45,779 bases of DNA from contig JAFDAJ010000017.1 in NCBI GenBank assembly GCA_019313915.1, forward strand, positions 1 through 45,779, given 5' to 3'. The notes under the pieces were generated by a model, which searched no databases, had not been told where the DNA came from, and saw nothing but the letters and a program-made list of their open reading frames with translations. Shown here piece after piece: positions 28,150 to 43,675 of this stretch. The stretch's first letter is position 1, and each line of letters starts with the position of its first letter. The DNA comes from Deltaproteobacteria bacterium. GTDB taxonomy: Bacteria; Myxococcota_A; Polyangia; Polyangiales; Houyiibacteriaceae. The position numbers and the translations under genes were made by a program.

Positions 28150-28407
28150 CTACTCGGGCGTTAGCTCACGAAGCGCAGCTTCGGCCTGCGCTTTGGTCTT
28201 TCGATGCGCGGCCGCACGCTTCAACCATTTCCGAGCCTCGGCCACGTTGTCGAGCATCTGGTAACACTTGCCGATCGCGAGCTCTTCTTCGGGTTGGGGC
28301 GCATAGTCCTTGTCCTTCCGCGTGCGGCGTTCGATATCATCGACCTTGCGTCGACAGTCCGCGGTGGTGCCGCCGTCGTCGTCTTGCTGCTGCTTTTGCG
28401 CCGCCAA
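28150..28407 (-). pseudogene. Out-of-frame C-terminal domain of the anti-sigma factor (TPR-like helices)
   Basis: In this frame the DNA encodes ADCRRKVDDIERRTRKDK..., EEELAIGKCYQMLDNVAEAR and KWLKRAAAHRKTKAQAEAAL, a helical hairpin like a TPR unit. The frame is open upstream to about 28520 (reading TDRSSSKEGLFEAGPRTR), where the frame of the 28979 start still makes sense. No good start site precedes it (only a TTG). I take it as the true C-terminus of the preceding anti-sigma gene, separated by a frameshift, and not as an independent gene. A ribosomal frameshift is less likely; no slippery heptamer was recognised. Confidence 0.6.
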
Positions 28408-28979
28408 TGGCTCTGATGCAGCACCGTACGACCGTGTGCGGGGACCGGCTTCGAAGAGGCCCTCTTTGCTCGAGCTTCTGTCCGTGGCGCGCGTCCCAAG
28501 TGCGCGGTCCGCTCGGACGCAACCTCCCCGAGCTCCGCAAGAGCAGCACTATCGTCGAGGGCCTCCGCCGCCACGTCATCGAGCTCCTGCTCCGCCACGA
28601 CCGGCGCTGCCGCGCTCTTGAGGTCCGCAGACCCAACGTCGCCTTCGAGCTGCACCTCACGCGGGATCGACCACACACCCACCCCGACCGCAAGCAAGGC
28701 GATCGCCGCCATCGCCCAGGGCGGCGGTTGCAGCCGCCGCTTTCGCAAAGGAACGACCCGAGGCAAACGCTCGCTCGCAGCGCGAACAACGGCGGCATCG
28801 GCCGCCGCAGACGGTTCCTCGATCGGGAGCTGCCCCGCCACCGCTAGCGCCGCTTTCATCTCGTCGAACGCCGCGCGACAATCGGGACACCGCGCGAGGA
28901 TCGCACGCACGCCGCCGGGATCGACCGCTTCGCGTTCGATCAACTCGAAGAGCTGCTCTTTGCACTCGTCACAGTTCAT
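28221..28979 (-). CDS. Anti-sigma factor with zinc-finger (zf-HC2-like) domain, apparently frameshifted
   Basis: The start MNCDECKEQLFELI has the Cys pairs C3/C6 and C31/C34 of zinc-binding anti-sigma domains. A membrane span (about residues 86-103, AMAAIALLAVGVGVWSI) follows and then an Ala/Glu-rich periplasmic stretch. It overlaps the ECF sigma gene by 11 bases, the usual pairing, and should hold that factor inactive at the membrane. After about residue 155 the frame becomes Arg/Ser/Thr-rich and non-protein-like, while the neighbouring frame (feature 28150-28407 and its upstream extension) reads as a good helical domain. A one- or two-base indel near 28500 is the simplest reading; sequencing error is possible. 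Confidence 0.75.
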   Translation of the reverse strand: MNCDECKEQLFELIEREAVDPGGVRAILARCPDCRAAFDEMKAALAVAGQLPIEEPSAAADAAVVRAASERLPRVVPLRKRRLQPPPWAMAAIALLAVGVGVWSIPREVQLEGDVGSADLKSAAAPVVAEQELDDVAAEALDDSAALAELGEVASERTAHLGRAPRTEARAKRASSKPVPAHGRTVLHQSHWRRKSSSKTTTAAPPRTVDARSMISNAARGRTRTMRPNPKKSSRSASVTRCSTTWPRLGNG

Positions 28980-29556
28980 GCGGCTCTTCCAAATCGCTCA
29001 AAGTGTGCTGCAAGCGCTCGAGAGCGTAGCGCATCCGGCTCTTCACGGTGTTTGCAGAAACGCCAACCACCTCGGCGATCTCCTTGAACGCCAGGCCCTG
29101 AAGCTGACGCAACAGAAACACCTCCCGCTGTTCGTCCGGCAAGCCCTCCACAGCGCGGGCGATCCGCTCCCCCACGAGCCGGCCGGCCGCGAGCTGCTCG
29201 GTTGATGGACCAAAGCTCGACACCCGCTCGCCGAGCGGCTGCCCGGAGCTCGGTTGAGGGGCGTCCAGGGAGGCGTGCCCGCGAAACTTCATCTTTCGCT
29301 GATGGTCGATGCATAGGTTCCGCGCGATCGTGTACAGCCATGTCGAGAACTTGGCGTCTCCGCGGAACTCGTCGCAGCGCTCGACGACCTTCATCCAGAC
29401 GTCTTGATACAGCTCCTCGGCTCGCCCGCGGTCCCGAGCCGAGCGCAACAGGAAGTTGAAGATCGGCCCGCGGTATCGTCCGAGCAACATCTCGAACGCT
29501 GCCAAGTCGCCTTCGCGATACGCCGCAAGCAGCGCTTCGTCCCCGGGATCGCTCAC
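28969..29556 (-). CDS. ECF-type RNA polymerase sigma factor
   Basis: The 195-residue protein has only regions 2 and 4. Region 2: YRGPIFNFLLRSARDRGRAE, ELYQDVWMKVVERCDEF and FSTWLYTIARNLCIDHQRK. Region 4: GLPDEQREVFLLRQLQGLAF, KEIAEVVGVSANTVKSRMRY. It should direct transcription of a stress or envelope regulon and be held by the membrane anti-sigma factor encoded next (11-base overlap). Start is GTG 29556 behind GAGGG. The gene is divergent from the six-gene trans-envelope operon at 29807, which makes that operon a candidate target, though its promoter looks like a standard sigma-70 site. Confidence 0.93.
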   Translation of the reverse strand: MSDPGDEALLAAYREGDLAAFEMLLGRYRGPIFNFLLRSARDRGRAEELYQDVWMKVVERCDEFRGDAKFSTWLYTIARNLCIDHQRKMKFRGHASLDAPQPSSGQPLGERVSSFGPSTEQLAAGRLVGERIARAVEGLPDEQREVFLLRQLQGLAFKEIAEVVGVSANTVKSRMRYALERLQHTLSDLEEPHEL

Positions 29557-29716
29557 GAAGCGCCCTCGTATTCACCGTGCTCGTATTGCGTCGGATGGCC
29601 ACACATCGATCGACGTCTGGGACTGCCGGAAGATCTACTCGATCGCCCCCCTGCAAGTGAAGGACAATTCAGCGCTTCTGCGTAATCCCGACCCTGGGAA
29701 ATGAGCGGGGCCTTCA

Positions 29717-29746
29717 TTGACCCACCTGCTAGCGCTGCGGTATAAG
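29717..29746 (+). promoter_or_regulatory. Sigma-70 promoter of the trans-envelope operon
   Basis: TTGACC (29717-29722) and TATAAG (29741-29746) are 18 bases apart, which predicts a start near 29753 and a leader of about 54 bases. The ribosome site AGAGGGGA lies just before ATG 29807. The 250-base gap 29557-29806 holds nothing else that I can identify. Confidence 0.6.
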
Positions 29747-29806
29747 CCCGGTGACTGTCGGGGGGCAATTTCGCTTCACATGGTGGTCACTTAGAGGGGA
29801 ATTGCG

Positions 29807-30517
29807 ATGCGCAGGACACTTGCGCTCTCCGTTGTGTTGCTATGTATCGGGGCCGGGACCACGATCGCGGCGGCCCAGGCCGGGGGTGCGTCGCAGCCGG
29901 ACACACCAAGCAAGCCTTCGGCGGCGGCCAAAACAGCCGCACCCGCAGCGCCAATCAAACCGATCGACGCCGGCACGTATGCGGTGCGGCTCCGCGATCT
30001 CGAACAGCGGATCAACGAGCTGAAGGAGCAGATCTTTCGCTCCAAGGCGCGACTGTCGTTGCTGGCAGAAACGGTCCTCGAAGGGGTCGTGGGCGGCGGC
30101 CAAGCAGTCATCGTTCACGAGAACCGGATGTCGCAATCCTACAAGTTGGTGAGGGTGGTCTACGCGCTCGACGGCGCTCCCATTTTCACCAAAGCCGACG
30201 AGGAAGGCTCGCTCGGCGACCAGCAGGAGTTCGAGGTCTACAACGGAAGCATCGTTCCGGGTGAGCACACGCTCACCGTCAACCTCGAGTACCGGGGACA
30301 TGGCTACGGCGTCTTCGCGTACCTGAAGGGCTATCGCTTCAAGGTGCGCTCCACGTACACCTTCGCGGTGCCAGAAGGCCGCATCTCGACAGTCCACGTG
30401 GTGGGCTACGAAAAGGGAGGCCCGACCACACCGCTCGAAGAGCGGCCGGCGGTCCGATACATCGAGCGCGTCGAACGCCAAGTTCGACCTGATGCAAGCG
30501 GTGAGGGCGATCGGTAA
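29807..30517 (+). CDS. Exported coiled-coil protein, first gene of the trans-envelope operon
   Basis: The 236-residue protein has a signal peptide (MRRTLALSVVLLCIGAGTT, cut after AAAQA or nearby). A Pro/Ala/Lys-rich spacer follows, then a coiled coil (residues about 66-95, RLRDLEQRINELKEQIF), then a beta-rich domain of about 120 residues with LVRVVYALDGAPIF, VYNGSIVPGEHTLTVNLEYR and FKVRSTYTFAV. The domain looks like an immunoglobulin-type sandwich, which is my inference. It probably acts in the periplasm. It is first in a unit of six overlapping genes: its TAA shares a base with the next ATG (TAATG at 30515-30519). I know of no named family; a GltC/NfsC-like role is one possibility. Confidence 0.75.
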   Translation: MRRTLALSVVLLCIGAGTTIAAAQAGGASQPDTPSKPSAAAKTAAPAAPIKPIDAGTYAVRLRDLEQRINELKEQIFRSKARLSLLAETVLEGVVGGGQAVIVHENRMSQSYKLVRVVYALDGAPIFTKADEEGSLGDQQEFEVYNGSIVPGEHTLTVNLEYRGHGYGVFAYLKGYRFKVRSTYTFAVPEGRISTVHVVGYEKGGPTTPLEERPAVRYIERVERQVRPDASGEGDR

Positions 30518-32910
30518 TGCGACCTCGTGGGGCGACAACGTCGCCGCCCACACCGACACCTGGCAGGGGGCGAGCGCGAGAGGTTTGGCTGAGATTCACC
30601 CTGATCTTCAGCCTCGTTGCGTCCGTTGCCCCTGATGTTGCCGCGCAAGACTTGACCGCGGCAAATCGCGAGGTGGCCGACCTCGAGTCGGACACCCAAC
30701 GACTAATGGCCCGTCCGGTGCGCCCGCACGACCGCAAAAGCGACACGTTCGTCGAAGAGCGTCTCACCGACGGCGAGCTCTACCTCCGCCTCGAGGACTA
30801 CCTGCGCGCTGCCATTCTCCTGATGGATATCGTCGATCACTATCCGACCCATCGCGCATATCCCGAGGCGCTATTCCTTCTCGGGGAGTCTCTATTCTTC
30901 GCGGGCGACTACCTCGGCGCGCGAAAGCGCTATGCGGAGGTGATCGACCGCAGTCGCGATCCGGCCTTCTCGTCATACCTCCAACCTGCGCTCAGTCGCC
31001 TGATCGAGATTGCCATTCACACGCGCGACTTCCGCGAGGTCGACGGATATTTCGCACGACTGGAGGCCCTTCCATCGGCCGCGCTCTCGGTGACAACCGC
31101 GTATTTCCGCGCGAAGTATTTGTACAACCGCGCCATCCCAATCGATGACGTCCTCAACGCTCCGCCCAACGCCGAGATTCGGGGCGTCGACCAGGGGCGA
31201 CTCGAACAGGCGCGCAAGGGGTTCGTCGCGATCCCCGGCGGATCCGAGTTCTCCCTTCGTTCGAAGTATTTCGTGGGCACCATTCACACGCTGCGCGGCG
31301 AATACCTCGACGCCATCGCGGCATTCCACGGAGTCCTCGGCCACGCGCCAACCAATGAGCAAGAAATTCAGGTCGTCGAGCTGACGTATCTGGCGCTCGG
31401 GCGCCTCTACTACGAAACCAACCAGCCTGAGCAGGCGATCGAAGCGTATCGGGCGGTCCGGCAGACTTCGTCCCACTTCGACGAAGCGCTGTACGAGCTC
31501 GCATGGACTTACATCAGAATGGGCGACGCCATCCAAGCCGAACGCGCGCTAGAGGTTCTCTCGGTGGCCGCACCCGACAGCCCGCTCAACGCCGACGGCA
31601 AGGTGCTACGGGGCGACCTGCTGGCCCGCACAGGACGCTACCAGGAAGCCGGGGTGGTGTTCGACGAGGTGCGCTCAACCTTCGGGCCCATCCGCGACGA
31701 GCTCGCACGCAAGCGTCGTGAGCACCCGGACCTTCATGCCTATTTCCGGGGGGTTGTGAGGGAAAACCTAGATCATTTCGACATAGATGACTTCCTGCCG
31801 GAGTCGGCTCGGCGATGGATCGACCTCGAAGGCGACTACGAGCGGGCGCTCGAGGTGCTCGCGGACCTGAGCGAAGCCAAGCAGCTGGTGCGTGAAACCG
31901 ACGAGCTCGCGCAGCGGATCACGGCCGCGCTGAGCGCGCCAAACCGAATCAGCGTCTTCTCCGACCTACGTCGACAGCGCGAACGGACTACGGGGCTCCG
32001 AAACCGCGCAGCGCGGGCGCGAGGAACGCTCATCAACAGCGAGTCCCAGGTCCGAGGCAACCGCCAGGGCGAGGTCGCGCGGGTTCGATCGCGACGTCAG
32101 GAGCTCCAGGCCGAATTGATGAAGATGCCGATCGACACGGAAGACTTCATCGACCGCGACCTCGACAAGCTCAAAGAGTACAGGGCGGCCGAGCGCGACC
32201 TGCAGGGGTTACGCGTCGAGATCCTCGGGCTCGAAGCCCGCATCGTCGCCTCGAGGTCCGGGTTGGCCTCCGTCGATCCGGAAAAGGTCGACCTCAAAGC
32301 GCTGCGTGCGCAGCTGGCCCAACACGAAACTGACATCAGGGAACACGAAGAGCAACTGACCTGGATTCGGCGCCGCCTCGAAGTAGGCCGGCTCCACGTT
32401 GGCGTCGGCGACAAGCGATACCAGGCAGACGATGCAAAACGCACCAAGTTCATCAACCTGGTCGACCGCGAGCGCGAGCTCGCAGGGTCAGGCGGCCCCG
32501 GGTACAACGCCGCGTTCTCGCGCGTCACGGCCGTAGAGCGCCAACTCAATCAACGCGACGCGGAAGTCGCGGCGGTGGTCAAGAGGCGGGTCTCGGAGAT
32601 GCTAGTGGTCGTCGATGAGGAAACCGCGAACCTCGCGCGCTATCGAGTAGCGATCGGGGCCCTCGAAGGGGAGACCGAAGAGGTCGTCGGAGCCATCACG
32701 TACCTCAACTTCAATCGCGTCCACGATCGCTTCTACGACTTGGTCCTCAGGGCAGACGTCGGCAAGATCGACGTCTCGTGGGCGAAGCGCGAGGATCACC
32801 GACTTCGCATCGACGCATTGACCCGTGAGCGTGCGCGCGAGCTTCAGGCCCTCGACGATGAGTTCCGCGACGTGATGGACCAGAACCAAACCAACGAGGG
32901 CGAGCCATGA
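30517..32910 (+). CDS. Exported TPR plus coiled-coil protein
   Basis: The 797-residue protein has a hydrophobic leader at residues 24-43 (WLRFTLIFSLVASVAPDVAA), so it is exported. Residues about 80-420 hold TPR-type units (LYLRLEDYLRAAILLMDIVD, FLLGESLFFAGDYLGARKRY, LGRLYYETNQPEQAIEAYRA, YELAWTYIRMGDAIQAERAL). Residues about 440-790 are a long charged coiled coil (RRQELQAELMKM..., LRAQLAQHETDIREHEEQL), ending ERARELQALDDEFRDVMDQ. It is likely a large periplasmic scaffold. The gene overlaps its neighbours by one base upstream and four downstream. The position and mix of TPR and coiled coil recall Glt/Nfs periplasmic components, without a one-to-one match I can assert. Confidence 0.82.
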   Translation: MRPRGATTSPPTPTPGRGRAREVWLRFTLIFSLVASVAPDVAAQDLTAANREVADLESDTQRLMARPVRPHDRKSDTFVEERLTDGELYLRLEDYLRAAILLMDIVDHYPTHRAYPEALFLLGESLFFAGDYLGARKRYAEVIDRSRDPAFSSYLQPALSRLIEIAIHTRDFREVDGYFARLEALPSAALSVTTAYFRAKYLYNRAIPIDDVLNAPPNAEIRGVDQGRLEQARKGFVAIPGGSEFSLRSKYFVGTIHTLRGEYLDAIAAFHGVLGHAPTNEQEIQVVELTYLALGRLYYETNQPEQAIEAYRAVRQTSSHFDEALYELAWTYIRMGDAIQAERALEVLSVAAPDSPLNADGKVLRGDLLARTGRYQEAGVVFDEVRSTFGPIRDELARKRREHPDLHAYFRGVVRENLDHFDIDDFLPESARRWIDLEGDYERALEVLADLSEAKQLVRETDELAQRITAALSAPNRISVFSDLRRQRERTTGLRNRAARARGTLINSESQVRGNRQGEVARVRSRRQELQAELMKMPIDTEDFIDRDLDKLKEYRAAERDLQGLRVEILGLEARIVASRSGLASVDPEKVDLKALRAQLAQHETDIREHEEQLTWIRRRLEVGRLHVGVGDKRYQADDAKRTKFINLVDRERELAGSGGPGYNAAFSRVTAVERQLNQRDAEVAAVVKRRVSEMLVVVDEETANLARYRVAIGALEGETEEVVGAITYLNFNRVHDRFYDLVLRADVGKIDVSWAKREDHRLRIDALTRERARELQALDDEFRDVMDQNQTNEGEP

Positions 32911-35900
32911 CCACGCGCCGCCCGGTCGTCCTGCTGGTGTGCTCTACACTGTGGTTCGCAGGATGGGTGCCGTCGGCCCCCGTCACCGCACAGGAGGCGG
33001 AGGCGGCGCCGTGGGAAGGCGCCGCCGACGTCACGTTGCCTCCGTTCCTGCGGGATACGGGCAAGCGCATCGTCGACGAACGGCCGCCTCCGACCGAACA
33101 GCAGCTCGAGGCGCTGCGCCAACTCGAAGAAGAGGTCGATCGTTTCATCGAGACGGGCGAGGCCTTCCGCTCGACCGTCACTTCGCTGGTGCGGCGTGAG
33201 TACCTTCAACAGCGCCGCCAACGCGACCGTTGGTACGGCGAGCGGCTCGAAACCGAAGAGCGAGCGTTCAACGAGGCCCGCGAAAGTTCGATTCGAGTAT
33301 TTGAGGACTTCATCCGCCGTTATCCGAACCACGTTAAGTACACGCCAGACGCGATGTTTCGCTTGGGCGAGCTCTATTTCGAACGAAGCGCCGTCGCCTT
33401 TCAAACGCTCTACGACGATGCGCAGGCCGCACGCGAGGCGGGCGACCTAACCGCAGAGGACAACCTGCCGACGTCGCCGGACTTCACGGCGACGGTCGAT
33501 CTCTACAAAACGTTGGCACGCCGTTTCCCGGGCTACGAACGCTCCGACGGCGTCTACTATTTGATCGGGTACACCCTGAACGAGATGGGCCGCCCAGAGG
33601 AAGCCGTGGCGGCGTGGCTCGCGCTCGTTTGCTCCAACAAGTACGACTACAACCCCGATTGGCGCCCGCCGCCTCCCGACGCCTCGCTCGCAGCACAGGC
33701 CAACTACCCAGCATTGAGGCTGGACGGCCGGCCGCTCGGCGCTTCGACGGGTGGCCCGTTCGTCGACCCGTATGCGAGCTGCCAGGCGATTACACCGCAG
33801 GCGCGTTTCGTCAGCGAGACGTGGTTCCGGGTCGGTGAGTACCACTTCGATGACTTCGGTGGTCAGAACGCGCTCGACCTCTCGATCGCGGCGTACGGCC
33901 ACATTCTCAGGAACCCTCAAGACCGGAACTACAACCTCGCGCTCTACAAGGTCGCCTGGGCCTATTACCGCGCGAGCCGTTACCCCGAGGCCATTCGGCA
34001 CTTCGGCAAACTGGTGCAGTGGTCGGACGACGCGCGGAGTGAGACCGGAAAGGCCGGCTCCGAGCTTCGACCCGAGGCAATCGAATACCTCGGCATCGCG
34101 TTCGCGTACGACGACTGGAACGAGAATCAGGTCTCCGATCCGATCGAGGGAAAGCCGACCGGCATCGAACGCATCCAGGACGCTTCGCTCATCCCGCAAC
34201 AAAGGCCGTGGACGCCCGAGGTCTACTTCCAACTCGGACAGATCTACTTCGAAGAGGCCAAGTACCAAGAGGCCATCGCGGCCTGGCGACTCGCCATTGG
34301 GAAATGGCCAGATCACCACCGCACCCCGGAGATTCTCAACGACATCGCCGTCGCACACCAGATGCACAACGAGTTCGAGAACGCCATCGTCGCGCGGTCA
34401 GAGCTCACTCAATACGTGCAGGGAAGCGCCTGGTGGAACGCGAACATGGACCGGCCGGCGGAGCAGCGAAACGCGGAGCAATTGGCCGAGAACGCTCTCA
34501 TCGTCACCGCGATTCACCATCACCAACGGGCTCAACGCCTCCGTCAGCAGTGCGTGCAGGAGCGCAACGTCCGCCTGTGTCGCGACTCCAGAATCGAGTA
34601 CGGGCTGGCCGCCACGGCATACCGCGGGTATCTGGAGCGCTACCCGAACAACCCGCAGGGCTACGAGCTGCACTACAACCTCGCCGACGCCCTGTACTGG
34701 TCCAAGAGCTACGAGCAGGCCGCGACGGAATACGCCGAAGTCCGGGACTCGAACGTGGATGACAGCTACCTCGCCGAGTCTGCGCGCCGGGTCGTGGAAT
34801 CGTTGAGGCGCATCGCCGATCGCGACGTCGAAGAAGGGCGTTTGCTCATCCGCGATGAGCCCCCACTTCCAGCTGGCGCGCCCCCCTCGGTCCAGCCCGT
34901 TGCGATGCCGGAGACCGTGCAACGGCTCGCGCGCGCCAGGGAGATTTACCTCACGCGGGTGAGCCCCAGTCGAGATACCGAAGGCGTGCGCGCGGCCTAT
35001 GACTACAACAACGCGTTGCTGCTCTACTGGTACGGCTACTGGCCGCAGGCGGACGCCCGGTTCACCCGCATCTACGAGGAACGGTGCTCGGGCCCAGAGG
35101 CCGACGCGACCGGCCAGATTGCCTGGGAGAATCTCCGCGCCATGGCCATGGCCACCGATGATTCCCAGGAAATTCGACGCCTTGCAACCGACATCCAGGA
35201 GCGAGGTTGTACGTTCTCGACGCGGGCCGACAAGATCGATTGCGCGAGGCCGGCCAATCGAGACAAGCCGATCTGCCGGGCGGGCGCAGACCTCAACGCG
35301 CTCGTCTACCAAGACGCACTCGACGTCTACAAGCACGCGGGCCAAGCCACCGGCACGCAGCAGCGGCTCCTCTACGAGCAGTCAGCGACGATGCTGCTGG
35401 CCGCGGTCAACAGCAACCCCGGTGATAGGCAGGCTCCGGTCGCACTCGAGTACGCCGCGCTCGCGCTCGAAGCGACCAATCGCTTCGAGTCCGCGGGCCA
35501 ACTGTACCAGCGCATCATCGACGAGGTGGGTCCGCGAAGAGCCGAAGATGCGGAGGAGCAGCGGAGCCTAGACGCGATCTTGGCCAACGCTCACTTCAAG
35601 CTCGCGTACACCGCAAGCCGCAACTTCGACTTCGACCGCGCCGTCGAGAACTACCGCGTTCTTGCGGACTCGCCGCGCTTCGCAAAATCCGCCGACCCTC
35701 AGATTCAAAGCAAACGTGCTGATGGCCTCGTGAACTCGGCGATTCTGCTCGAGCAGCTCCAGCGATACGCCGAAGCGACGCAATACTATGGTCGGGTCTA
35801 CAGCACCGTCGGCGACGTCGAGACCCGACGAAACGCACTCTACCGAATCGCCGAGATGGCCTACAGGCAGCAGCGGTACTCGCAGGCGATAGGCGGCATG

Positions 35901-36737
35901 CGCGAGTTCATCAAGGTCTACGGCAACGACGGCGAGGCCGGGGAGCTCGTCGTGCGGGCACATTGGCGGATAGCGCAGTCTTGGAAGGCGCGGGGACGAA
36001 TGAGCGACTACCGCAAGGCACTCAAGGACGTGACGTCGTCGTTCGAGCGCACCGGTCAGCCCGCAGGTTCGATCGCGGCGGGCTATGCAGCGGAAGCCCG
36101 CTTCATCCAGGTGGACGGGAAACTCGCTGGCTTCGAGAAATTCCAGATCAAACCGGGCAAGCCCAAGACGGTCGAGGCGTATATCTCCACCATTACGAAA
36201 CAGATCGGCAACGGCGGCAAACAAGCCCAGTCGATTGCAAACGGCTACGAGCCGGTCTTGCCCTACCGGCGCCCGCGTTGGACCATCGCGTCCTACGTTC
36301 GGCAGGGGCGGGCCTACGAGGTCTTGGCGCGCTCGATCCTCAACACTCCCATCGTGATGCCGCTGGACCTGAAGAAGGCGCTCCGCCAGGCCGGACCTGA
36401 CGAGCGTGAGGAGTACCAGCTCGACTTCGAGGACAAGGTTCGCCAGGTGCTCGACACTCAGGTGCGGCCCATTGAGTGTTTCGCGGTCGCGCGCTACGCA
36501 TTGGCCGCGCGTGCTGGCCGGGCAGGTAGTTTCGACGACGAGTACACCCGCATCGCAATTGACCGGCTTCAAGCCTACGGCGACGAGCGAATCGCGGAGT
36601 GCATCGCCGAGGCGCAAACTCGTGACGCTACCTTCCAGGGGTACGTACCCGGTGAGTTCGCCCGGTCACCGAGAGGTAAGCCGCTGGAGATTCGACCAGG
36701 GATCGCGCCACCTGCTATCACCACGGAGAGCGAGTGA
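32907..36737 (+). CDS. Large exported TPR protein, AgmU/GltD-like in size and layout
   Basis: The 1276-residue protein has a signal peptide (RRPVVLLVCSTLWFAGWV, cut after VTAQ). It is built mainly of TPR units spread over the whole length, for example FEDFIRRYPNHVKYTPDAMF, LYKVAWAYYRASRYPEAIRH, VYFQLGQIYFEEAKYQEAIA, LHYNLADALYWSKSYEQAAT and LYRIAEMAYRQQRYSQAIGG. A periplasmic protein-binding scaffold is the natural reading. Its length and repeat content resemble M. xanthus AgmU (GltD) and NfsD, large TPR proteins of the gliding and spore-coat machines; this is analogy from memory, not an alignment. The start overlaps the previous stop (ATGA), and its end overlaps the next start (GTGA). Confidence 0.82.
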   Translation: MTTRRPVVLLVCSTLWFAGWVPSAPVTAQEAEAAPWEGAADVTLPPFLRDTGKRIVDERPPPTEQQLEALRQLEEEVDRFIETGEAFRSTVTSLVRREYLQQRRQRDRWYGERLETEERAFNEARESSIRVFEDFIRRYPNHVKYTPDAMFRLGELYFERSAVAFQTLYDDAQAAREAGDLTAEDNLPTSPDFTATVDLYKTLARRFPGYERSDGVYYLIGYTLNEMGRPEEAVAAWLALVCSNKYDYNPDWRPPPPDASLAAQANYPALRLDGRPLGASTGGPFVDPYASCQAITPQARFVSETWFRVGEYHFDDFGGQNALDLSIAAYGHILRNPQDRNYNLALYKVAWAYYRASRYPEAIRHFGKLVQWSDDARSETGKAGSELRPEAIEYLGIAFAYDDWNENQVSDPIEGKPTGIERIQDASLIPQQRPWTPEVYFQLGQIYFEEAKYQEAIAAWRLAIGKWPDHHRTPEILNDIAVAHQMHNEFENAIVARSELTQYVQGSAWWNANMDRPAEQRNAEQLAENALIVTAIHHHQRAQRLRQQCVQERNVRLCRDSRIEYGLAATAYRGYLERYPNNPQGYELHYNLADALYWSKSYEQAATEYAEVRDSNVDDSYLAESARRVVESLRRIADRDVEEGRLLIRDEPPLPAGAPPSVQPVAMPETVQRLARAREIYLTRVSPSRDTEGVRAAYDYNNALLLYWYGYWPQADARFTRIYEERCSGPEADATGQIAWENLRAMAMATDDSQEIRRLATDIQERGCTFSTRADKIDCARPANRDKPICRAGADLNALVYQDALDVYKHAGQATGTQQRLLYEQSATMLLAAVNSNPGDRQAPVALEYAALALEATNRFESAGQLYQRIIDEVGPRRAEDAEEQRSLDAILANAHFKLAYTASRNFDFDRAVENYRVLADSPRFAKSADPQIQSKRADGLVNSAILLEQLQRYAEATQYYGRVYSTVGDVETRRNALYRIAEMAYRQQRYSQAIGGMREFIKVYGNDGEAGELVVRAHWRIAQSWKARGRMSDYRKALKDVTSSFERTGQPAGSIAAGYAAEARFIQVDGKLAGFEKFQIKPGKPKTVEAYISTITKQIGNGGKQAQSIANGYEPVLPYRRPRWTIASYVRQGRAYEVLARSILNTPIVMPLDLKKALRQAGPDEREEYQLDFEDKVRQVLDTQVRPIECFAVARYALAARAGRAGSFDDEYTRIAIDRLQAYGDERIAECIAEAQTRDATFQGYVPGEFARSPRGKPLEIRPGIAPPAITTESE

Positions 36738-38029
36738 TGCGCGGTGCTATCCCAACGTTGGTGTTGATTGCAGCTATGATGTTCGTCACGTACGGTTGCA
36801 GCGGGAAGTCGGCCTCCGAGCCCACCGAGCCGGAGTCCTCGTCGGGCGGCGAGGCGCCAACCGAGGCTGGAGCTGTGCCTTCCGAAGCGCTGGCCTCCTC
36901 CGAAGCGGAGAGCCCCTGGGGCGCGACGCGCGCCGAGCAGTGCCGCCGTGAAGCCCACCCGCCCATGTCAGCGAAGGCGAGAAGGGCATTCAATCAAGGC
37001 GTGCGTGCCGCGGCGACCAACGACAACGCCACGGCCGAGACGAGCTTTCAAAGTGCGCTCAAGAAAGACCCCAACGCGTACCCAGCTCTGTACAATCTCG
37101 GCGTGCTCGCCGACCGCGCCGGCAACGAACGGGACGCAATGAACTATTACCAACGCGCGTTGCGAATCGTTCCGGACTATGAACCGGCCGCGCGCGGCGT
37201 CTCGACCATTCAAATCCGCCGAAAGCAAGTGCAAGACGCGGTGGCAACGGTCGAGCCACTTGCCAACGAGTACCGCGCCAACCTCGAGATGCAGGCACTG
37301 TATGCGGAGGTGTTGGTGGAAGCGAGACGGCTCGACGAAGCATGGATGGCCGCTAGACGCGCGCTCAAGTGCGACGAGCGTTTCGTGCCAGCACTGGTCG
37401 CCCTCGTGAAAGCCAGCCGCTCGCAGGGGCGGGACGAGCTCGCGGATTCGATCCTGGAGCAAGCAATGCAGGTCGATCCTGACGTCGCCGAGCTCCATTT
37501 TCTGCAGGGCGAGAGACTCGAAGCCGAACCCGGCCAACTCCGAGAGGCGATGGCGGCGTACCAGCGAGCCATTCAGCTGCGCCCCAACTATGCAGAGGCG
37601 CGGATGGCGCTCGGGATCCAACTGCTCGCGGGCGGCAACTATCCCGCCGCGCTCTCACACTTCCAAGCTGCGGAGCGACTCGTCCCGACGCTTCCCGAGA
37701 TCCACGTGAACCTCGGTGATGCGTACCGGGCAACCAAACAGTGGCCCGAAGCCCAGGGCGCCTACCGTCGAGCCCTCGAGCTACAGTCGAAGCTTCCCGA
37801 GGCGCATTACGGCCTGGGCCTGCTCTTCCTCACCGCCGCGGGCGATTTCCCGGGCCTCGACGAGCTCGCTGCATATGAGAAGGCCGTCAAGGAGCTCAAG
37901 ACCTATCGTGCTGAGATGGGACCGCGCTTGGCCAAGGACGACCAGGCGGAGGAGTACCTTCGCGACTTGGATCGAATGATCAAACGAGCCCGGCGGCGGA
38001 TCGAACGCGAACAGGGAGGCACCTCATGA
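36734..38029 (+). CDS. TPR lipoprotein, AglT/GltE-like
   Basis: The 431-residue product starts MMRGAIPTLVLIAAMMFVTYGC (GTG 36734 or ATG 36737), a lipoprotein leader with lipidation at Cys22. After a Ser/Glu/Pro-rich spacer there are seven or more TPR units: YPALYNLGVLADRAGNERDA, MQALYAEVLVEARRLDEAWM, LREAMAAYQRAIQLRPNYAE, IHVNLGDAYRATKQWPEAQG, LPEAHYGLGLLFLTAAGDFP. It is probably anchored in the outer membrane facing the periplasm, where it could link periplasmic scaffolds to outer-membrane parts, as TPR lipoproteins GltE and NfsE do. The next gene starts in an ATGA overlap behind GGGAGG. Confidence 0.85.
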   Translation: MMRGAIPTLVLIAAMMFVTYGCSGKSASEPTEPESSSGGEAPTEAGAVPSEALASSEAESPWGATRAEQCRREAHPPMSAKARRAFNQGVRAAATNDNATAETSFQSALKKDPNAYPALYNLGVLADRAGNERDAMNYYQRALRIVPDYEPAARGVSTIQIRRKQVQDAVATVEPLANEYRANLEMQALYAEVLVEARRLDEAWMAARRALKCDERFVPALVALVKASRSQGRDELADSILEQAMQVDPDVAELHFLQGERLEAEPGQLREAMAAYQRAIQLRPNYAEARMALGIQLLAGGNYPAALSHFQAAERLVPTLPEIHVNLGDAYRATKQWPEAQGAYRRALELQSKLPEAHYGLGLLFLTAAGDFPGLDELAAYEKAVKELKTYRAEMGPRLAKDDQAEEYLRDLDRMIKRARRRIEREQGGTS

Positions 38030-38280
38030 AACGATGGGCTTCGGCCGTGCTGCTGGCGCTGCTTTTGGTCGCTGTGTCGACAACCGCTGCGCTTGCCCAA
38101 GGCGGTAGGAAACGGCAACCGCGGGTGATCCAACTCGAAGAGATCATCATCGAGGGTCGAGTGCAGAAACCCAACGCATTTTACATCCTCAACCGATCGA
38201 ACTTGGGCTATGAAGTGCTCGAGCTTCGCACGAGCTTTCTTCGCAAGGTCGTCCGCAGCGTGCAGAAGGAACCATTCTAA
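38026..38280 (+). CDS. Small exported protein (84 aa) in the trans-envelope operon
   Basis: The protein has a signal peptide (MKRWASAVLLALLLVAV..., cut after ALA) leaving a mature chain of about 60 residues: a basic stretch, then IQLEEIIIEGRVQKPNAFYI, LNRSNLGYEVLELRTSFL and RKVVRSVQKEPF. There are no cysteines and no membrane segment after the leader. The well-formed ribosome site and overlaps with both neighbours (ATGA upstream, TAATG downstream) show it is a real gene despite its size. It sits right before the FHA-like/TonB-like protein and is likely its periplasmic partner. I know no named family; GltF-like is a guess. Confidence 0.8.
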   Translation: MKRWASAVLLALLLVAVSTTAALAQGGRKRQPRVIQLEEIIIEGRVQKPNAFYILNRSNLGYEVLELRTSFLRKVVRSVQKEPF

Positions 38281-39737
38281 TGGCGCAGTCGCAGACTCCG
38301 AGGCAGGAACCGCGGCCAGGCGCCATGACGATGGCGATGCAGGCCGTCCCGATGAGGCATTCGGGCCCGAAGGTCCTTCGCATCGGTCTGTTTCGAGATA
38401 AGAAAATTGTCGAGGAGCGCATCGTGCGACGGCGGGAGACCGTATCGATCGGAACTGCCGCCAAGAATCACCTCATCATCAAGTCGGGGACGCTACCGGC
38501 AAAGCTCGAGTCGCGATTTGAGCTCTTCCAACTCGTCGGTGACGACTACATTCTGAATTTCACCAGCAACATGACCGGTAAGGTCGCACTCCCGGGCGGC
38601 GTGCAGAAGCTCGAGCACCTCCGCGAAACCGGCGCCGCGCGAAACGCCGGGACACACCACCAGATCAAGCTCGCAGATACCTCGCGGGGCAACATTCGAC
38701 TCGGGGACTTCACGGTCTTCTTCGAGTTTGTTTCGGCGCCACCCATCACGCCGAGGCCGCAGCTTCCCGCCGCTGTGCAGCGTGGATTCGTGAAGAACAT
38801 CGATTGGACCTTCACGACCTGGGTCATCTTCTCGTACATGCTGTTCTTCGGGTTCATCATCTACATGGAGAACGCCGACTGGGAGATTGACACGGGTGTC
38901 CAGGAGGTACCGGAAGTTCTGGCGCGCCTGGTCTTCGAAGCCCCGATAGAGCCTCCCGTGGTCGAAGAAGAAATAGAAGTAGAAGCAGGCAAGGGCGAAG
39001 AGGAAGACGCGAAGACCAAAGCGCCCGACAGAAAGCCGGCCAAAACGGAGCCCAAGGAACCGGCCGGCGGACAAGAGCCAGCCGAGGCCGCCGAAGGGCG
39101 CGCGCGGATCGTGCAAGAGGCCGCCGCACAAGCCGAAGCCATGCTGCTGGGCGCGTTGGGCGGAGAGGGCGGCGTCCTCGGCGATGTGCTCTCTGGAGGC
39201 GCAGTGACCGGCAACGCGGCCGACGTCTTGGCACAAGCCTCGGGCATCGGGGTGGCAACCAAGAGCGAGGCGGGCAAGCTGCGCACGCGAAGCGGCGGCG
39301 GCAGTGGGCAGAAGGCGGGACTCGGCTCACTCAAGAAGAGCCAAGGCGCCGGCAAGGCGGCCAAGGAGGGCGAGGCGGTCAAGGAGCGCGACGTCCGTGG
39401 CAACGTCGGGGTCAACAGCGGCGGCGACGTGGGGGGCAGTGGCGAGTTCGACGCCGCGCTGGTCCAGCGGCAGATCAAACAACGCTTGAAGTCGATCACC
39501 CGCTGCTACGAATCTGAGCTTCGCAAGAACCCGAGTCTGTCCGGAAAGGTCACCGTGACCTTCACCATCCAAGAACGGGGCAATGTCACCGACGCCAGGG
39601 CGACCGAGAATACGACCGGGAGCCCGGCCGTCGCCGACTGTGTCACCAGGACGATCAGCCGCTTCCGCTTCAATCCGGGACCGGACGGAGGAAGCGTCAC
39701 ATTCCGTTATCCCTTTGTTTTCCAGCCTCAAAATTAG
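38280..39737 (+). CDS. FHA-like, single-TM protein with AgmX/PglI (TonB-like) C-terminal domain
   Basis: The 485-residue protein spans the inner membrane once (residues 178-196, TTWVIFSYMLFFGFIIYM). Residues 30-152 form a cytoplasmic FHA-like beta domain (RRRETVSIGTAAKNHLII..., GNIRLGDFTVFFEF); the usual phosphothreonine-binding Arg/Ser pair is not clear. Beyond the membrane are an acidic/Lys/Pro-rich linker (about 205-270), a Gly-rich stretch (285-385), and the C-terminal AgmX/PglI domain (388-485) with VQRQIKQRLKSITRCYESEL and GKVTVTFTIQERGNV. The layout equals M. xanthus GltG/NfsG: a cytoplasmic sensor tied to a periplasmic TonB-like arm that can reach the outer membrane. It is last in the six-gene unit. 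No TolQR/AglRQS motor genes lie in the window. Confidence 0.88.
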   Translation: MAQSQTPRQEPRPGAMTMAMQAVPMRHSGPKVLRIGLFRDKKIVEERIVRRRETVSIGTAAKNHLIIKSGTLPAKLESRFELFQLVGDDYILNFTSNMTGKVALPGGVQKLEHLRETGAARNAGTHHQIKLADTSRGNIRLGDFTVFFEFVSAPPITPRPQLPAAVQRGFVKNIDWTFTTWVIFSYMLFFGFIIYMENADWEIDTGVQEVPEVLARLVFEAPIEPPVVEEEIEVEAGKGEEEDAKTKAPDRKPAKTEPKEPAGGQEPAEAAEGRARIVQEAAAQAEAMLLGALGGEGGVLGDVLSGGAVTGNAADVLAQASGIGVATKSEAGKLRTRSGGGSGQKAGLGSLKKSQGAGKAAKEGEAVKERDVRGNVGVNSGGDVGGSGEFDAALVQRQIKQRLKSITRCYESELRKNPSLSGKVTVTFTIQERGNVTDARATENTTGSPAVADCVTRTISRFRFNPGPDGGSVTFRYPFVFQPQN

Positions 39738-39783
39738 CTTCAGCTTAATCGCATTATTCCTTTTTTACTGTATTATGAGTCCA

Positions 39784-39811
39784 TTGACACGGGATTTGCG
39801 TGGCGTATAGT
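39784..39811 (+). promoter_or_regulatory. Sigma-70 promoter of the polysaccharide-export genes
   Basis: A perfect -35 TTGACA (39784-39789) and TATAGT (39806-39811) are 16 bases apart; the start would be near 39818, 18 bases before ATG 39836. It lies at the end of an unusually AT-rich stretch (39730-39790) in GC-rich DNA that also separates it from the operon ending at 39737. Confidence 0.7.
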
Positions 39812-39835
39812 CGCCGCAAGTTTAGGGGATCGTTG

Positions 39836-40435
39836 ATGTTTACACGAATGAGGACCGCAGGATACGCGCTTCTGGCCGCCTTGGCGGTTGGGGGAAGCTT
39901 GGGGTACGCGATCGCTCAGGAGGGAAGCGACTCGACGGTCGACGTCGTCAAGGTCGAGCGGATAGGCCCGTCCAGCGAGCAGCCGACCCTGTCGCCGGCG
40001 GCGCAAGCGAAAGCAGCGAAGGCTGCGGTCGCAAGTGCGACGTCTAGCTGCGCGGCCCAGTCGCAGGCACTTCAGAGCGCGAAGCGCGAAAAGGACATCA
40101 TCCGAGCCACCTGCTTGGACGACAAGCTCAGTCAGTGCAACGCCAACCTTCAGAACATCAAACGCCGGGAGGTCTCGTTGAACGAAGCCATCGCCGAGGG
40201 TGACACCGGCCGCGGCAACCACGAATTCACCGTGATCGGCGTGCTTTCCCAGAAGTTCAAGATGTTGGCCCAGGCCGCAAACCAGTGCGTGGGCCAGGAC
40301 CTATTCGACACCGGCGACACCCAGGTGAAGGAAGAGGTCGACCTCTTTGCTCCGGACGAGAATCCGGGTGTGGTCACCGGCGTGCCTGATTGGCCGGTCC
40401 CATACATACCGCCACCAATCAGCGGCGTGAACTAG
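39836..40435 (+). CDS. Exported protein of unknown function before the export genes
   Basis: From ATG 39836 (behind TTTAGGGG) the product is 199 residues with a signal peptide (RTAGYALLAALAVGGSLGYA, cut near AIAQ). The mature part is an Ala/Lys-rich helical region with four cysteines (SSCAAQSQ, ATCLDDK, SQCNANL, NQCVGQD), probably two disulfides, and ends in an acidic and Pro-rich tail (DWPVPYIPPPISGVN). I recognise no family. It is the first gene after the promoter at 39784 and lies 42 bases before the beta-barrel gene, so it is probably part of that unit and acts in the periplasm. Confidence 0.75.
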   Translation: MFTRMRTAGYALLAALAVGGSLGYAIAQEGSDSTVDVVKVERIGPSSEQPTLSPAAQAKAAKAAVASATSSCAAQSQALQSAKREKDIIRATCLDDKLSQCNANLQNIKRREVSLNEAIAEGDTGRGNHEFTVIGVLSQKFKMLAQAANQCVGQDLFDTGDTQVKEEVDLFAPDENPGVVTGVPDWPVPYIPPPISGVN

Positions 40436-40477
40436 CTAGCGGGGTGGGTTTGGCATGCGCGGGGGGAGCAAGGGATC

Positions 40478-41812
40478 ATGCGCTACTGCGGAAAGTTAGA
40501 GCTTGCTCTGGCTTTCGTGGCGACCCTGAGCGCCGCGTCGCTCCCGGCAACCGCCGACGCGCAGGGCTTCAGCGATGATCGCTCGTCGATGGAGGGCCCT
40601 GGGTTCAAGGCTGGACGCCTCGTCCTGCACCCGGGCCTCTCTCTAGAAGGCGGCTACGATTCGAACGTCTTTCTTCAAGACACCAACGAAGCAGACTCGT
40701 TCATTTTGCGACTCGTCGGGTACCTCGACGTAGCCACCGAGGGAACCGAGCGGCAGAGCCAGGGCGACTCAAACGAGGCCGAACCGCAGAAGATCCAATT
40801 TCGCGGCGGCATCGGTGCGCAGTACTACCACTACTTCCTCGACAGAATCCCCGACAACCTCGGCGCGGACGCGCACATCGATTTGTCCTACAACCCTTCC
40901 AAGGTCTTTTCCCTGCAGGTGCGCGACATCTTCCGTCGAACCGTGCGTCCGTTCTCAGACCCGAACACCGTCCAGGGCGCCACGGTGAGCTACGGCCACA
41001 ACAGCAACGCGGCGACACTCGATCTCGTGGGCCGAAGCAAGAGCCAAGTGCTCGAGGGCCGAGTGGGCTACACGAACGCCGTGGAGTTCTTCGACGCGAG
41101 CATCTACCAATACGGTAACAGCATGACCCATCGGGTCCCGGTCTCGTTGGCATGGCGGTTTTTTCCAACCTCCGCATTGATCTACACGTTCGACTACGCC
41201 CGCCAGCAATTCCAAAACCCGGATCAGGTCCTCGCCTCCGCAACACTGCTGTCCAACAACAACCGGATTTCGAACTTGATCGGCTACAACGGCGCGATCA
41301 CCGAGAGATTCTCGTTCACTGCGATGATTGGATATGCGGCAGGGTTCTACGACCGCGACCTCGCAGAGGATTACGATGGGGTGATCGCGCGCCTAGATAC
41401 GCGCTGGCGGCCTCGGCCAACGATCACGCTGGTCGCAGGGTTCGACCGAGATTACCGCCCGTCATTCATCGGCAACTACACGCTGGCGAATCGGCTCTAC
41501 GCGAACGTGCGATTCACCCTGGCTGGCGCGCTTCAGCTAGGCGTCAAAACTTGGGTGTCGTTTGACAGGTCGGGCCTGGCGCTCAGCCCTGATGGCACCC
41601 TGCTCGGCAACCAGCCCAACCGAGAAGACACGCGCGTTTACGCCGGCATCTTCGGGGAATATCGGTTCAAGGCATGGCTCGCACTGTTTGGCGAGATCGG
41701 CTATTTGGCGGATTTCACGGAGTTCCAATACCTCGGGGGGGCTCCGCTACTCGACCCCTCCGCGAACTATCAGAGGTTTGATGCATGGCTTGGTCTGCGC
41801 GTCTTTTATTGA
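40478..41812 (+). CDS. Outer-membrane beta-barrel protein
   Basis: The 444-residue protein has a signal peptide (LELALAFVATLSAASLPATA, cut near DAQ). It is built of many alternating, aromatic-bounded strands (VLHPGLSLEGGYDSNVFLQ, FRGGIGAQYYHYFLDRI, ALIYTFDYARQQF, FSFTAMIGYAAGFY) and ends in aromatic Tyr (FDAWLGLRVFY), the usual C-terminal signal for BAM insertion. It resembles the barrels found next to Wza-type genes in polysaccharide clusters. It may form a porin-like exit or stabilise the export complex. ATG 40478 follows AAGGGATC. The 3' end overlaps the Wza-type gene by 28 bases. Confidence 0.85.
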   Translation: MRYCGKLELALAFVATLSAASLPATADAQGFSDDRSSMEGPGFKAGRLVLHPGLSLEGGYDSNVFLQDTNEADSFILRLVGYLDVATEGTERQSQGDSNEAEPQKIQFRGGIGAQYYHYFLDRIPDNLGADAHIDLSYNPSKVFSLQVRDIFRRTVRPFSDPNTVQGATVSYGHNSNAATLDLVGRSKSQVLEGRVGYTNAVEFFDASIYQYGNSMTHRVPVSLAWRFFPTSALIYTFDYARQQFQNPDQVLASATLLSNNNRISNLIGYNGAITERFSFTAMIGYAAGFYDRDLAEDYDGVIARLDTRWRPRPTITLVAGFDRDYRPSFIGNYTLANRLYANVRFTLAGALQLGVKTWVSFDRSGLALSPDGTLLGNQPNREDTRVYAGIFGEYRFKAWLALFGEIGYLADFTEFQYLGGAPLLDPSANYQRFDAWLGLRVFY

Positions 41813-42393
41813 TTACGAGTTTGCTGCTCCTGGCCTTCGGTTTCTCTGCGTGTAGTAAGCGGGGCGTGCAAGTCACCGAGGTCCCGCCGCCAGCGACCGA
41901 CGACACCACTCTGGGGCCGGGTGACGTTTTCTCGGTTCGTGTCTATGGCGAGGAGGCGATGACCGGGAGCCATCAGGTGGCCCCGGACGGCACGATCAAC
42001 TTCCCGCTACTCGGCGCCATTCAGGTCAACGGATTCGAGCCGACCGAGGTAGCGGAGAAAATTCAACGCGAGCTCAAGGAGCGGGACCTCATGCGCAATC
42101 CGCATGTGTCTGTGTACGTCGAAGAATACGCATCAAAACGCGTCAGCGTCGTAGGCGCGGTGGCCAATCCGGGCACGTTCCCACTCGAGCCCGGCATGAC
42201 CGTCGTGCAAGCAATCAGCATGGCGGGTGGTTTCTCGTCGCTGGCCGACCGCGACGCGACGGTCGTCACGCGACGTGTCGACGAAGAGATCATCCGCTAT
42301 CGGGTTCCGGTGGCACGGGTCACCAAGGGCCAGGCGGAGGACATCGAAGTCGCCGCGGGAGACATCATTTTCGTCCCGGAGCGACTGTTCTAG
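41785..42393 (+). CDS. Wza-type polysaccharide export lipoprotein
   Basis: The 202-residue protein starts MAWSARLLLITSLLLLAFG with lipobox FSAC (Cys23). The Poly_export domain begins TLGPGDVFSVRVYGEEAMTG and continues VAPDGTINFPLLGAIQVNG; a SLBB domain follows (KRVSVVGAVANPGTFPLEPG, MTVVQAISMAGGFSSLADR). By family it forms the periplasmic/outer-membrane channel for exporting capsule or exopolysaccharide. It is shorter than E. coli Wza and has a single SLBB domain and no C-terminal amphipathic helix, so the neighbouring barrel could supply the outer-membrane pore. The matching inner-membrane kinase/co-polymerase (Wzc/BY) is not in the window. The stop is four bases from the end of the convergent dehydrogenase gene. 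Confidence 0.92.
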   Translation: MAWSARLLLITSLLLLAFGFSACSKRGVQVTEVPPPATDDTTLGPGDVFSVRVYGEEAMTGSHQVAPDGTINFPLLGAIQVNGFEPTEVAEKIQRELKERDLMRNPHVSVYVEEYASKRVSVVGAVANPGTFPLEPGMTVVQAISMAGGFSSLADRDATVVTRRVDEEIIRYRVPVARVTKGQAEDIEVAAGDIIFVPERLF

Positions 42394-42397
42394 CGGG

Positions 42398-43675
42398 TCA
42401 CAGGCTCCAGTAGAGCAGGTCGCTTCTCAGGTCGTCGGAGCAAACCAACGACTTCACGTCGACGAACAGGCCGCCTTTGCGGACGCTGCCGACGACGCGG
42501 TCGAGTTGCTCGAGAAACTGCTGATGGGGTACCGCGAGGATGACGCCATCGAGGCCCGTCAGCGCATCGAAGGGGCGAAGATCGATGCTGTACTCGCGGA
42601 GCGCTTCCTCGCCGGAAGCCAGTGGGTCATGGACAATCGGATCGATGCCGTATTCACGAAGCTCATTGATGATGTCAGGCACGCGGCTGTTCCGAAGATC
42701 GGGCACGTTCTCTTTGAACGTCAGCCCGAGCACACCGATGCGCGCACCCTTGATCGCGTGATCCTGTTCGCGAAGCAGCTTGATGGTCCGCTCCGCCACA
42801 TGGCGGCCCATGTCGTCGTTGATTCGACGCCCCGCGAGAATGACCTCGGGATGGTATCCGAGCGCCTCAGCCTTCGCAGTGAGGTAGTACGGGTCGACCC
42901 CGATGCAGTGACCTCCAACCAGGCCGGGCGTGAACGGCAAGAAATTCCATTTGGTTCCCGCTGCGTCGAGCACGTCTGCGGTCCGAATACCCATACGATC
43001 GAAGATCAGTGCCAACTCGTTCATCAAGGCGATGTTGAGGTCTCGCTGGGTGTTCTCAATCACCTTCGCCGCCTCTGCGACTTTGATCGAAGGCGCGCGA
43101 TGCACTCCCGCGTCGACCACGCTCCCGTAGGCGTGTGCCACCCGATCCAACGTTTCGGCGTCTTCACCGGAGACCACCTTGATGACTTTCTCAAACGTGT
43201 GGAGCTTGTCGCCGGGGTTGATGCGCTCCGGGGAATAGCCAAGCTTGAAATCGATCGACTGACGCAGCCCTGAGGTTTCAGCCAGCAGGGGCCCACATTG
43301 CTCCTCGGTCACCCCGGGATACACGGTCGATTCGTAGACGACCACAGCCCCCGGAGCGAGTGCGGTGGCCACGATTCGAGTCGCCGACAGGAGAGGCCCG
43401 AGATTCGGCCGACGATCGGCGTCGATCGGCGTCGGTACCGCCACGACGAAGAACGTGCACCCTCGCAAATCCGCTGGGTCGCTCGTGATCTTCAGGCTAG
43501 TCTCAAGGAGCTGGGCCTCTGTGACCTCACCGGTCCAATCGTCGTTCGCGGCGAGCGCGCTCACCCGGGCCTCGGAGATGTCGAAACCGACCGTGTCCTC
43601 GAACTTTCGGGCAAAGGCCAAGGCGACCGGCAGGCCTACGTACCCGAGCCCTACGACTGCAACACGCTCGCTCAT
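42398..43675 (-). CDS. Nucleotide-sugar dehydrogenase (UDP-HexNAc 6-dehydrogenase, WbpA/TviB-like)
   Basis: The 425-residue enzyme oxidises C6 of a UDP-sugar to a carboxylate using two NAD+. The NAD-binding motif is VAVVGLGYVGLPVALAFA; the catalytic region has YESTVYPGVTEE, GYSPERINPGD and the active-site Cys in LVGGHCIGVDPYYLT. The sequence favours the WbpA/TviB/WecC branch (UDP-N-acetylhexosamine) over UDP-glucose dehydrogenase, but the substrate cannot be fixed from here. ATG 43675 overlaps the epimerase stop (ATGA) and begins with the usual MSERVAVVG; a start at 43702 was rejected. It is the last gene of the dehydratase-epimerase-dehydrogenase unit that makes activated sugars for the surface polysaccharide. 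Confidence 0.93.
   Translation of the reverse strand: MSERVAVVGLGYVGLPVALAFARKFEDTVGFDISEARVSALAANDDWTGEVTEAQLLETSLKITSDPADLRGCTFFVVAVPTPIDADRRPNLGPLLSATRIVATALAPGAVVVYESTVYPGVTEEQCGPLLAETSGLRQSIDFKLGYSPERINPGDKLHTFEKVIKVVSGEDAETLDRVAHAYGSVVDAGVHRAPSIKVAEAAKVIENTQRDLNIALMNELALIFDRMGIRTADVLDAAGTKWNFLPFTPGLVGGHCIGVDPYYLTAKAEALGYHPEVILAGRRINDDMGRHVAERTIKLLREQDHAIKGARIGVLGLTFKENVPDLRNSRVPDIINELREYGIDPIVHDPLASGEEALREYSIDLRPFDALTGLDGVILAVPHQQFLEQLDRVVGSVRKGGLFVDVKSLVCSDDLRSDLLYWSL

Follow-up and report, generated by a model that had tools for sequence, protein, structure and literature searches.

A Glt-type trans-envelope operon of the G4 clade and its conserved linkage with polysaccharide export genes in Myxococcota

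The locus described here raises the question of what a relative of the Myxococcus xanthus gliding (Glt) and spore-coat (Nfs) machines does next to a Wza-type polysaccharide exporter. The window, i.e., the whole stretch of 45,779 nucleotides that was analyzed, is part of a Deltaproteobacteria bacterium genome (contig JAFDAJ010000017.1; Polyangiales, Houyiibacteriaceae). Nine open reading frames are present between positions 29807 and 42393, where the initial annotation had placed them, six of them forming a Glt-type operon and three coding for an exporter with an outer membrane polysaccharide export (OPX) lipoprotein. Trees and gene order point to the operon as an orthologue of the functionally unassigned M. 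xanthus cluster G4, and the export genes stay beside it in most of the relatives that could be compared. The features involved are the following.

29807 to 30517, plus strand: first gene (cc), exported protein with a long helix (residues 55 to 92) and a beta-sandwich domain in the AlphaFold2 (AF2) model.
30517 to 32910, plus strand: GltC homologue, exported tetratricopeptide repeat (TPR) protein (NCBIfam gliding_GltC).
32907 to 36737, plus strand: GltD homologue, large periplasmic TPR protein (TPR repeats, matches of relatives, tree).
36734 to 38029, plus strand: GltE homologue, TPR lipoprotein with lipobox ...FVTYGC (NCBIfam gliding_GltE).
38026 to 38280, plus strand: GltF/CglF homologue, 84-aa exported protein (NCBIfam gliding_CglF; position kept in relatives).
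38280 to 39737, plus strand: GltG homologue without an FHA domain (NCBIfam gliding_GltG and myxo_SS_tail; tree).
39784 to 39811, plus strand: predicted promoter of the export genes, TTGACA-16-TATAGT (consensus match here and in relatives).
39836 to 40435, plus strand: exp7, exported three-helix-bundle protein (alignment of 34 homologues; AF2).
40478 to 41812, plus strand: outer membrane beta-barrel, Wzp-type, in the WzpB position (weak BBP2_2/EpsL matches; synteny).
41785 to 42393, plus strand: short OPX lipoprotein with Poly_export and SLBB domains, in the WzaB position (Pfam; tree).

The first six genes (29807 to 39737) overlap by 1 or 4 bases each, and the export half (39836 to 42393) comprises exp7, the barrel and the OPX gene, directly downstream as the initial annotation had it. 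The GltG gene is separated by 98 bp from the ATG of exp7 at 39836 (an alternative GTG listed at 39800 falls within the promoter), exp7 and the barrel gene lie 42 bp apart, and the barrel and OPX genes overlap by 28 bases. Signal peptides and two lipoboxes (GltE and OPX) are readable in the translations. The promoter is the best consensus site across positions 28900 to 42600, with 11 of 12 matches here and 11 or 12 of 12 in all eight members of the genus compared; similar sites precede exp7 in several family members, and terminator-like hairpins, read by eye from the sequence, follow GltG in some relatives. We therefore regard it as a real, strong sigma-70 promoter, separate and conserved in the genus, that would drive the export genes as had been proposed. 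Because this conserved promoter lies between them, with hairpins in addition in some relatives, the two halves are read as adjacent transcription units, and a single nine-gene operon was rejected.

Comparison with curated profiles bore out the Glt/Nfs-type part list at the level of homology. GltC (E 2e-19, 69.7 bits against a cut-off of 450), GltE (E 1e-28, 100 bits against 225), GltF (gliding_CglF, E 3e-5, 23.8 bits against 90) and GltG (E 2e-45, 155.7 bits against 650) all matched their NCBIfam models, but every one missed the Glt equivalog cut-off by a wide margin. No curated model matched GltD, which was identified by position, profile score and tree; its homologues were matched in 139 of the 145 relatives' genomes searched. 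Pfam families in the Glt-type products were TPRs and TonB_C. Homologues of GltC, GltD, GltE and GltG encoded together make up the core complex of the Agl-Glt/Nfs superfamily, and no GltA, GltB, GltH, GltI, GltJ or GltK was recognized in the operon. The GltG homologue consists of an N-terminal domain, one transmembrane segment, a periplasmic linker and a TonB-like C terminus, whose predicted AgmX/PglI domain (myxo_SS_tail, E 8e-28) was confirmed above the cut-off. Its GltG match spans profile positions 188 to 647, so that positions 1 to 187, including the FHA domain, are missing. The FHA-like N terminus suggested at first did not hold up, as there was no Pfam match and comparison with the FHA domain of the other GltG of this lineage gave a probability of 0.7% (a weak negative added to that of Pfam, since this FHA profile contained two sequences only).

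The protein of the first gene has no Pfam or credible NCBIfam match and shares about 59% identity with the copy in Myxococcaceae (59% over 164 aa in locus L221). Foldseek searches with its model (pLDDT 79.6) retrieved weak, generic fimbrillin-like adhesins and transthyretin-like sandwiches (best E 7e-4, TM score of about 0.3), and those with the exp7 model (pLDDT 77) generic helical bundles; assigning a function from the fold was abandoned for both proteins.

To place the operon among the known systems, profiles were built from order-level orthologues and run on other loci. Since no GltG in the phylum sample scored above the curated cut-off, Myxococcaceae genomes were reached through M. xanthus MglA, its sequence checked against PDB 6HJH. 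In the GltG tree, a 99/99 branch divides 35 G4-type rows from the Glt, Nfs and G5 rows and from the second Glt-like locus of this genome. The labels Glt, Nfs and G5 were given from the NCBIfam GltG score and the copy pattern within the same genomes (in one Myxococcaceae genome, the scores were 1082, 341 and 177 bits), and L232 and L236 were called Nfs in this way, without a locus tag. The GltD tree agrees, save for one row of unsettled place (L129). Both GltG and GltD cluster with the mglA-linked copy of Myxococcaceae (to which GltD shows 28% over its full length), and GltG groups with neither the Glt GltG nor NfsG. By these trees, the system of the window is a member of a separate G4-type clade, neither Glt nor Nfs; the original designation as a Glt/Nfs machine survives as superfamily homology, but the operon itself is an orthologue of G4.

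The likeness to M. xanthus G4 (PMC3169522) extends from the GltG and GltD clade to the order cc-GltC-GltD-GltE-GltF-GltG, found in its close Myxococcaceae relatives. There (L221 to L224), mglA lies directly upstream of the same nine genes in the same order, whereas the window has instead a divergent sigma factor of the extracytoplasmic function (ECF) type. In M. xanthus, mglA is MXAN_1925 (PMC3983030, PMC4316618), the G4 gltD homologue is MXAN_1922 (PMC3169522), and WzpB and WzaB are MXAN_1916 and MXAN_1915, wzaB lying downstream of wzpB at a distance of 23 bp (PMC9603273); barrel and OPX follow one another in this order here too. From the published tags and the order in close relatives, the genes expected to correspond in M. 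xanthus are MXAN_1924 to MXAN_1915.

The genus, family and order of the window share the arrangement cc-GltC-GltD-GltE-GltF-GltG-exp7-barrel-OPX, and it recurs in further families of the class as well as in different classes. We parsed 68 G4-type loci, which are not independent (several come from one genus) but span many families, and 35 of them had at least 4.5 kb of sequence after GltG. OPX was present in 28 of these 35, the barrel in 29 and exp7 in 27, while OPX, barrel, exp7 and first gene were all absent from the loci of other Glt/Nfs-type paralogues (0/19). The initial annotation had named beforehand loss of adjacency in all relatives as a finding that would count against it; 28 of 35 loci keep the OPX gene. 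The first gene is a marker of the G4-type clade. Exp7 goes with the exporter, as is seen where barrel and OPX have parted from the Glt genes and exp7 has remained with them: in L265, a Sandaracinus-like genome (this label and "Polyangiales-type" below are inferred lineage labels), the trio is located far from them, beside a polysaccharide copolymerase (PCP) gene. This arrangement is in line with the S. amylolyticus homologue, described as contiguous with genes for biosurfactant polysaccharide (BPS) (PMC7310880).

As for the exporter, the OPX protein carries Poly_export (E 4e-21) and SLBB (E 2e-14) domains, in agreement with its first description as a Wza-type lipoprotein. With 202 aa (≤280 aa, no C-terminal Wza domain) and a barrel directly upstream, it fits a composite OPX/beta-barrel translocon. 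It is 43% identical to the OPX of L221, and the linked OPX proteins are separated in the tree (96/98) from six OPX of the EpsY/ExoA type that these genomes also encode; the tree gave no clear position to L255, a short and divergent row. The barrel has weak BBP2_2 and EpsL matches (NCBIfam and Pfam) and is syntenic with the barrel adjoining OPX in Myxococcaceae, which, together with the literature (PMC9601211, PMC9603273), makes it the counterpart of WzpB (MXAN_1916). No NCBIfam or Pfam family matched exp7, in which D87, C93 and C151 are invariant among the 34 aligned homologues. By position, the export genes would be orthologous to WzaB/WzpB of the M. xanthus BPS pathway (MXAN_1915/1916; PMC7310880, PMC9601211, PMC9603273), also a short lipoprotein OPX with Poly_export and SLBB only, a barrel directly upstream of it and the G4 genes upstream of both. 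WzaB has been called orphan-like, and its mutant shows a BPS phenotype (PMC7310880); the OPX of the window differs from it in having nucleotide-sugar genes beside it and in being the sole OPX of its genome, the only Poly_export match found there.

Nfs (PMC3858216) resembles the window in the order GltC-D-E-F-G, the absence of GltI/J and the link to Wza-type polysaccharide export. It differs in forming a separate clade, lacking a cc gene, having the genes of its Exo exporter at another place in the M. xanthus genome, and carrying a GltG-type protein longer at the N terminus (frames of about 680 to 770 aa against 485 aa here). The Glt machine (G1/G2) with AglRQS shares homologous GltC, D, E, F and G. 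A third comparison, by description only, is with the gltC-D-E-G plus aglRQS core of Gammaproteobacteria, Geobacter and Fibrobacter (PMC3169522), in which the core genes are clustered with the motor; no linked OPX is reported for these core complexes in the literature examined.

No AglRQS-type motor (one ExbB, two ExbD) is encoded within the window, as had been noted; this holds for the window but not for the genome or for the operons of 13 relatives. A search of the genome located two divergent ExbB-ExbD-ExbD sets, AglRQS-like and back to back, on contig C297 (L090, G000:C297, 4 to 3927), and the relatives' 13 loci carry ExbB-ExbD-ExbD between GltF and GltG, clustered as in the core complexes above. 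In Polyangiales-type relatives the same slot holds one protein of about 200 aa, with no ExbD after it; its family and the motor ExbB can be aligned across 189 columns (probability 97.6%, E 3e-12). In the genus of the window the slot is empty. The simplest reading is that the in-operon motor was ancestral and was lost or decayed several times, so that its absence here would be a derived state, brought about by loss from the operon in this lineage. The lone ExbB-like protein (L059 to L097; e.g., L062, 7477 to 8124) is conserved and without a Pfam match.

On balance, we think it probable that the operon encodes a transducer of the G4 type, which would work with the adjacent Wzx/Wzy-type exporter (OPX, Wzp barrel and exp7) to move or position the polysaccharide that is secreted. 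GltG would span the inner membrane, its TonB-like C terminus linking a proton-driven ExbB/ExbD motor, presumably supplied in trans, to GltC and GltD, the TPR proteins of the periplasm, and to the outer membrane lipoprotein GltE. These three may act on the polysaccharide leaving the adjacent OPX/Wzp translocon, and the complex might then move, position or lay out the polymer at the cell surface, by analogy with Agl-Nfs and the spore-coat polymer. The AglRQS motor of M. xanthus binds to NfsG and drives the movement of the Exo polymer secreted for the spore coat (PMC3858216). A bolder version, which we hold only tentatively, is a single glycan machine driven by the proton motive force: the transducer would dock on OPX/Wzp and actively pull, orient or spread the emerging polymer, and the exporter itself would serve as the outer membrane end instead of GltA/B/H. 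On this view, the built-in motor of Polyangiales-type lineages would have been reduced to a lone ExbB or lost altogether, with a shared motor in trans replacing it.

Several observations weigh against such a coupling. Each half has a promoter of its own, and in some relatives hairpins resembling terminators lie between the two. Sandaracinus-like genomes (L074, L076) have lost the adjacency, two further families are exceptions as well, and in L225, L228, L229 and Hyalangium the distance is stretched to 7 to 12 kb (about 12 kb in the latter). The in-operon motor is gone in the lineage of the window, so the complex may be passive here. The connection of G4 with BPS is drawn from homology and gene order. 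Finally, the Exo export sites of M. xanthus did not colocalize with NfsD (PMC3858216), which means that systems of this kind do not require direct contact.

The main rival for this lineage, though an unlikely one, is a static scaffold, in which a trans-envelope complex devoid of a motor positions or stabilizes the OPX/Wzp exporter and generates no force. In its favor, the motor trio has shrunk to one divergent ExbB in relatives of the Polyangiales type and is absent from the genus of the window; against it stand the two trios kept on C297, the ability of AglRQS to serve Glt as well as Nfs in trans in M. xanthus (PMC3858216), and the transmembrane segment and TonB-like C terminus retained by GltG. 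Somewhat less probable still, the two halves could be mere neighbors, the Glt-type complex having its own envelope or polarity job beside an old, uncoupled exporter. Separate transcription units, mglA directly upstream in Myxococcaceae and the breakable adjacency (Sandaracinus-like genomes, Hyalangium) would suit this explanation; however, order and orientation are kept across several classes (28/35 loci against 0/19 for paralogues), mglA is linked in some lineages only and the exporter in most, and the breakaway export trio stays with its PCP, where this was looked up. That this is the gliding machine of the organism is very improbable: the part list overlaps Glt and two motor trios exist in the genome, but the equivalog cut-offs are all missed, GltG lacks FHA, the clade is separate (the other Glt-like locus on C374 being nearer to Glt), and disruption of MXAN_1922 left motility unaffected (PMC3169522).

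The initial annotation had spoken of a machine not yet described. Both parts are already known, G4 as a cluster listed without function in 2011 (PMC3169522) and WzaB/WzpB as a translocon; what is added here is their linkage, and we infer the role in glycan secretion or assembly. Searches on the tags in between and on the two systems jointly found no open-access paper linking G4 with WzaB/WzpB (subscription papers were outside their scope). Two loose ends of Myxococcus biology would meet here, the G4 Glt-like cluster and the "orphan" wzaB of the biosurfactant pathway. The phylum-wide linkage suggests that a relative of the gliding machine handles secreted polysaccharide. The Agl-Nfs principle, in which motors move glycan on the cell surface, would then reach further than sporulation, and glycan handling, not motility, becomes a possible origin of Glt-type machines. 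The linkage also makes the function of this little-studied "third" machine directly testable.

The genes flanking the nine described above are as follows.

42398 to 43702, minus strand: UDP-glucose/GDP-mannose dehydrogenase family protein (nucleotide-sugar supply), convergent (Pfam).
43672 to 44616, minus strand: NAD-dependent nucleotide-sugar epimerase (Pfam, E 4e-57).
44613 to 45779, minus strand: Polysacc_synt_2 nucleotide-sugar epimerase/dehydratase (PglF/CapD-like), open at the window end (Pfam, E 2e-119).
28969 to 29556, minus strand: divergent ECF-type sigma factor (Pfam Sigma70_r2/r4_2).

The three convergent nucleotide-sugar genes run from OPX to the end of the window. The dehydrogenase is kept next to OPX in the genus and is codirectional with it in L259. 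In relatives, a nucleotide-sugar dehydrogenase, epimerases and a Wzc-like protein are found next to OPX (recognized from translations and PCP positions). No PCP (Wzz/Wzc) was found in this fragmented genome assembly, while 11 of 18 genus siblings have one; several relatives encode it on the same contig as OPX, at a distance of a few to about 20 kb. Replacement of the PCP by the Glt complex, which the single OPX and missing PCP might suggest, was rejected, an assembly gap being likelier in view of these relatives. The sigma factor, followed by a probable anti-sigma gene (28221 to 29556 together), diverges from the operon and is found beside it in many relatives; it is a possible regulator of the operon.

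The second Glt-like locus of the genome (L091, G000:C374, about 67 to 84 kb) encodes a very long TPR frame and a GltG that bears an FHA domain and whose place in the tree is closer to Glt. In L141 to L208, which comprise Myxococcaceae and some other loci, the gene directly upstream of the G4-type operon is mglA, so that polarity control adjoins the machine there. One of them, L142 (BNCN01000011.1, titled "Comamonas sp. KCTC 72670"), encodes an MglA 99% identical to that of M. xanthus within the Myxococcaceae gene order, and its organism name is probably wrong. Elsewhere in the window, a HAD hydrolase is fused to a UbiA-type prenyltransferase (1365 to 2822, minus strand).

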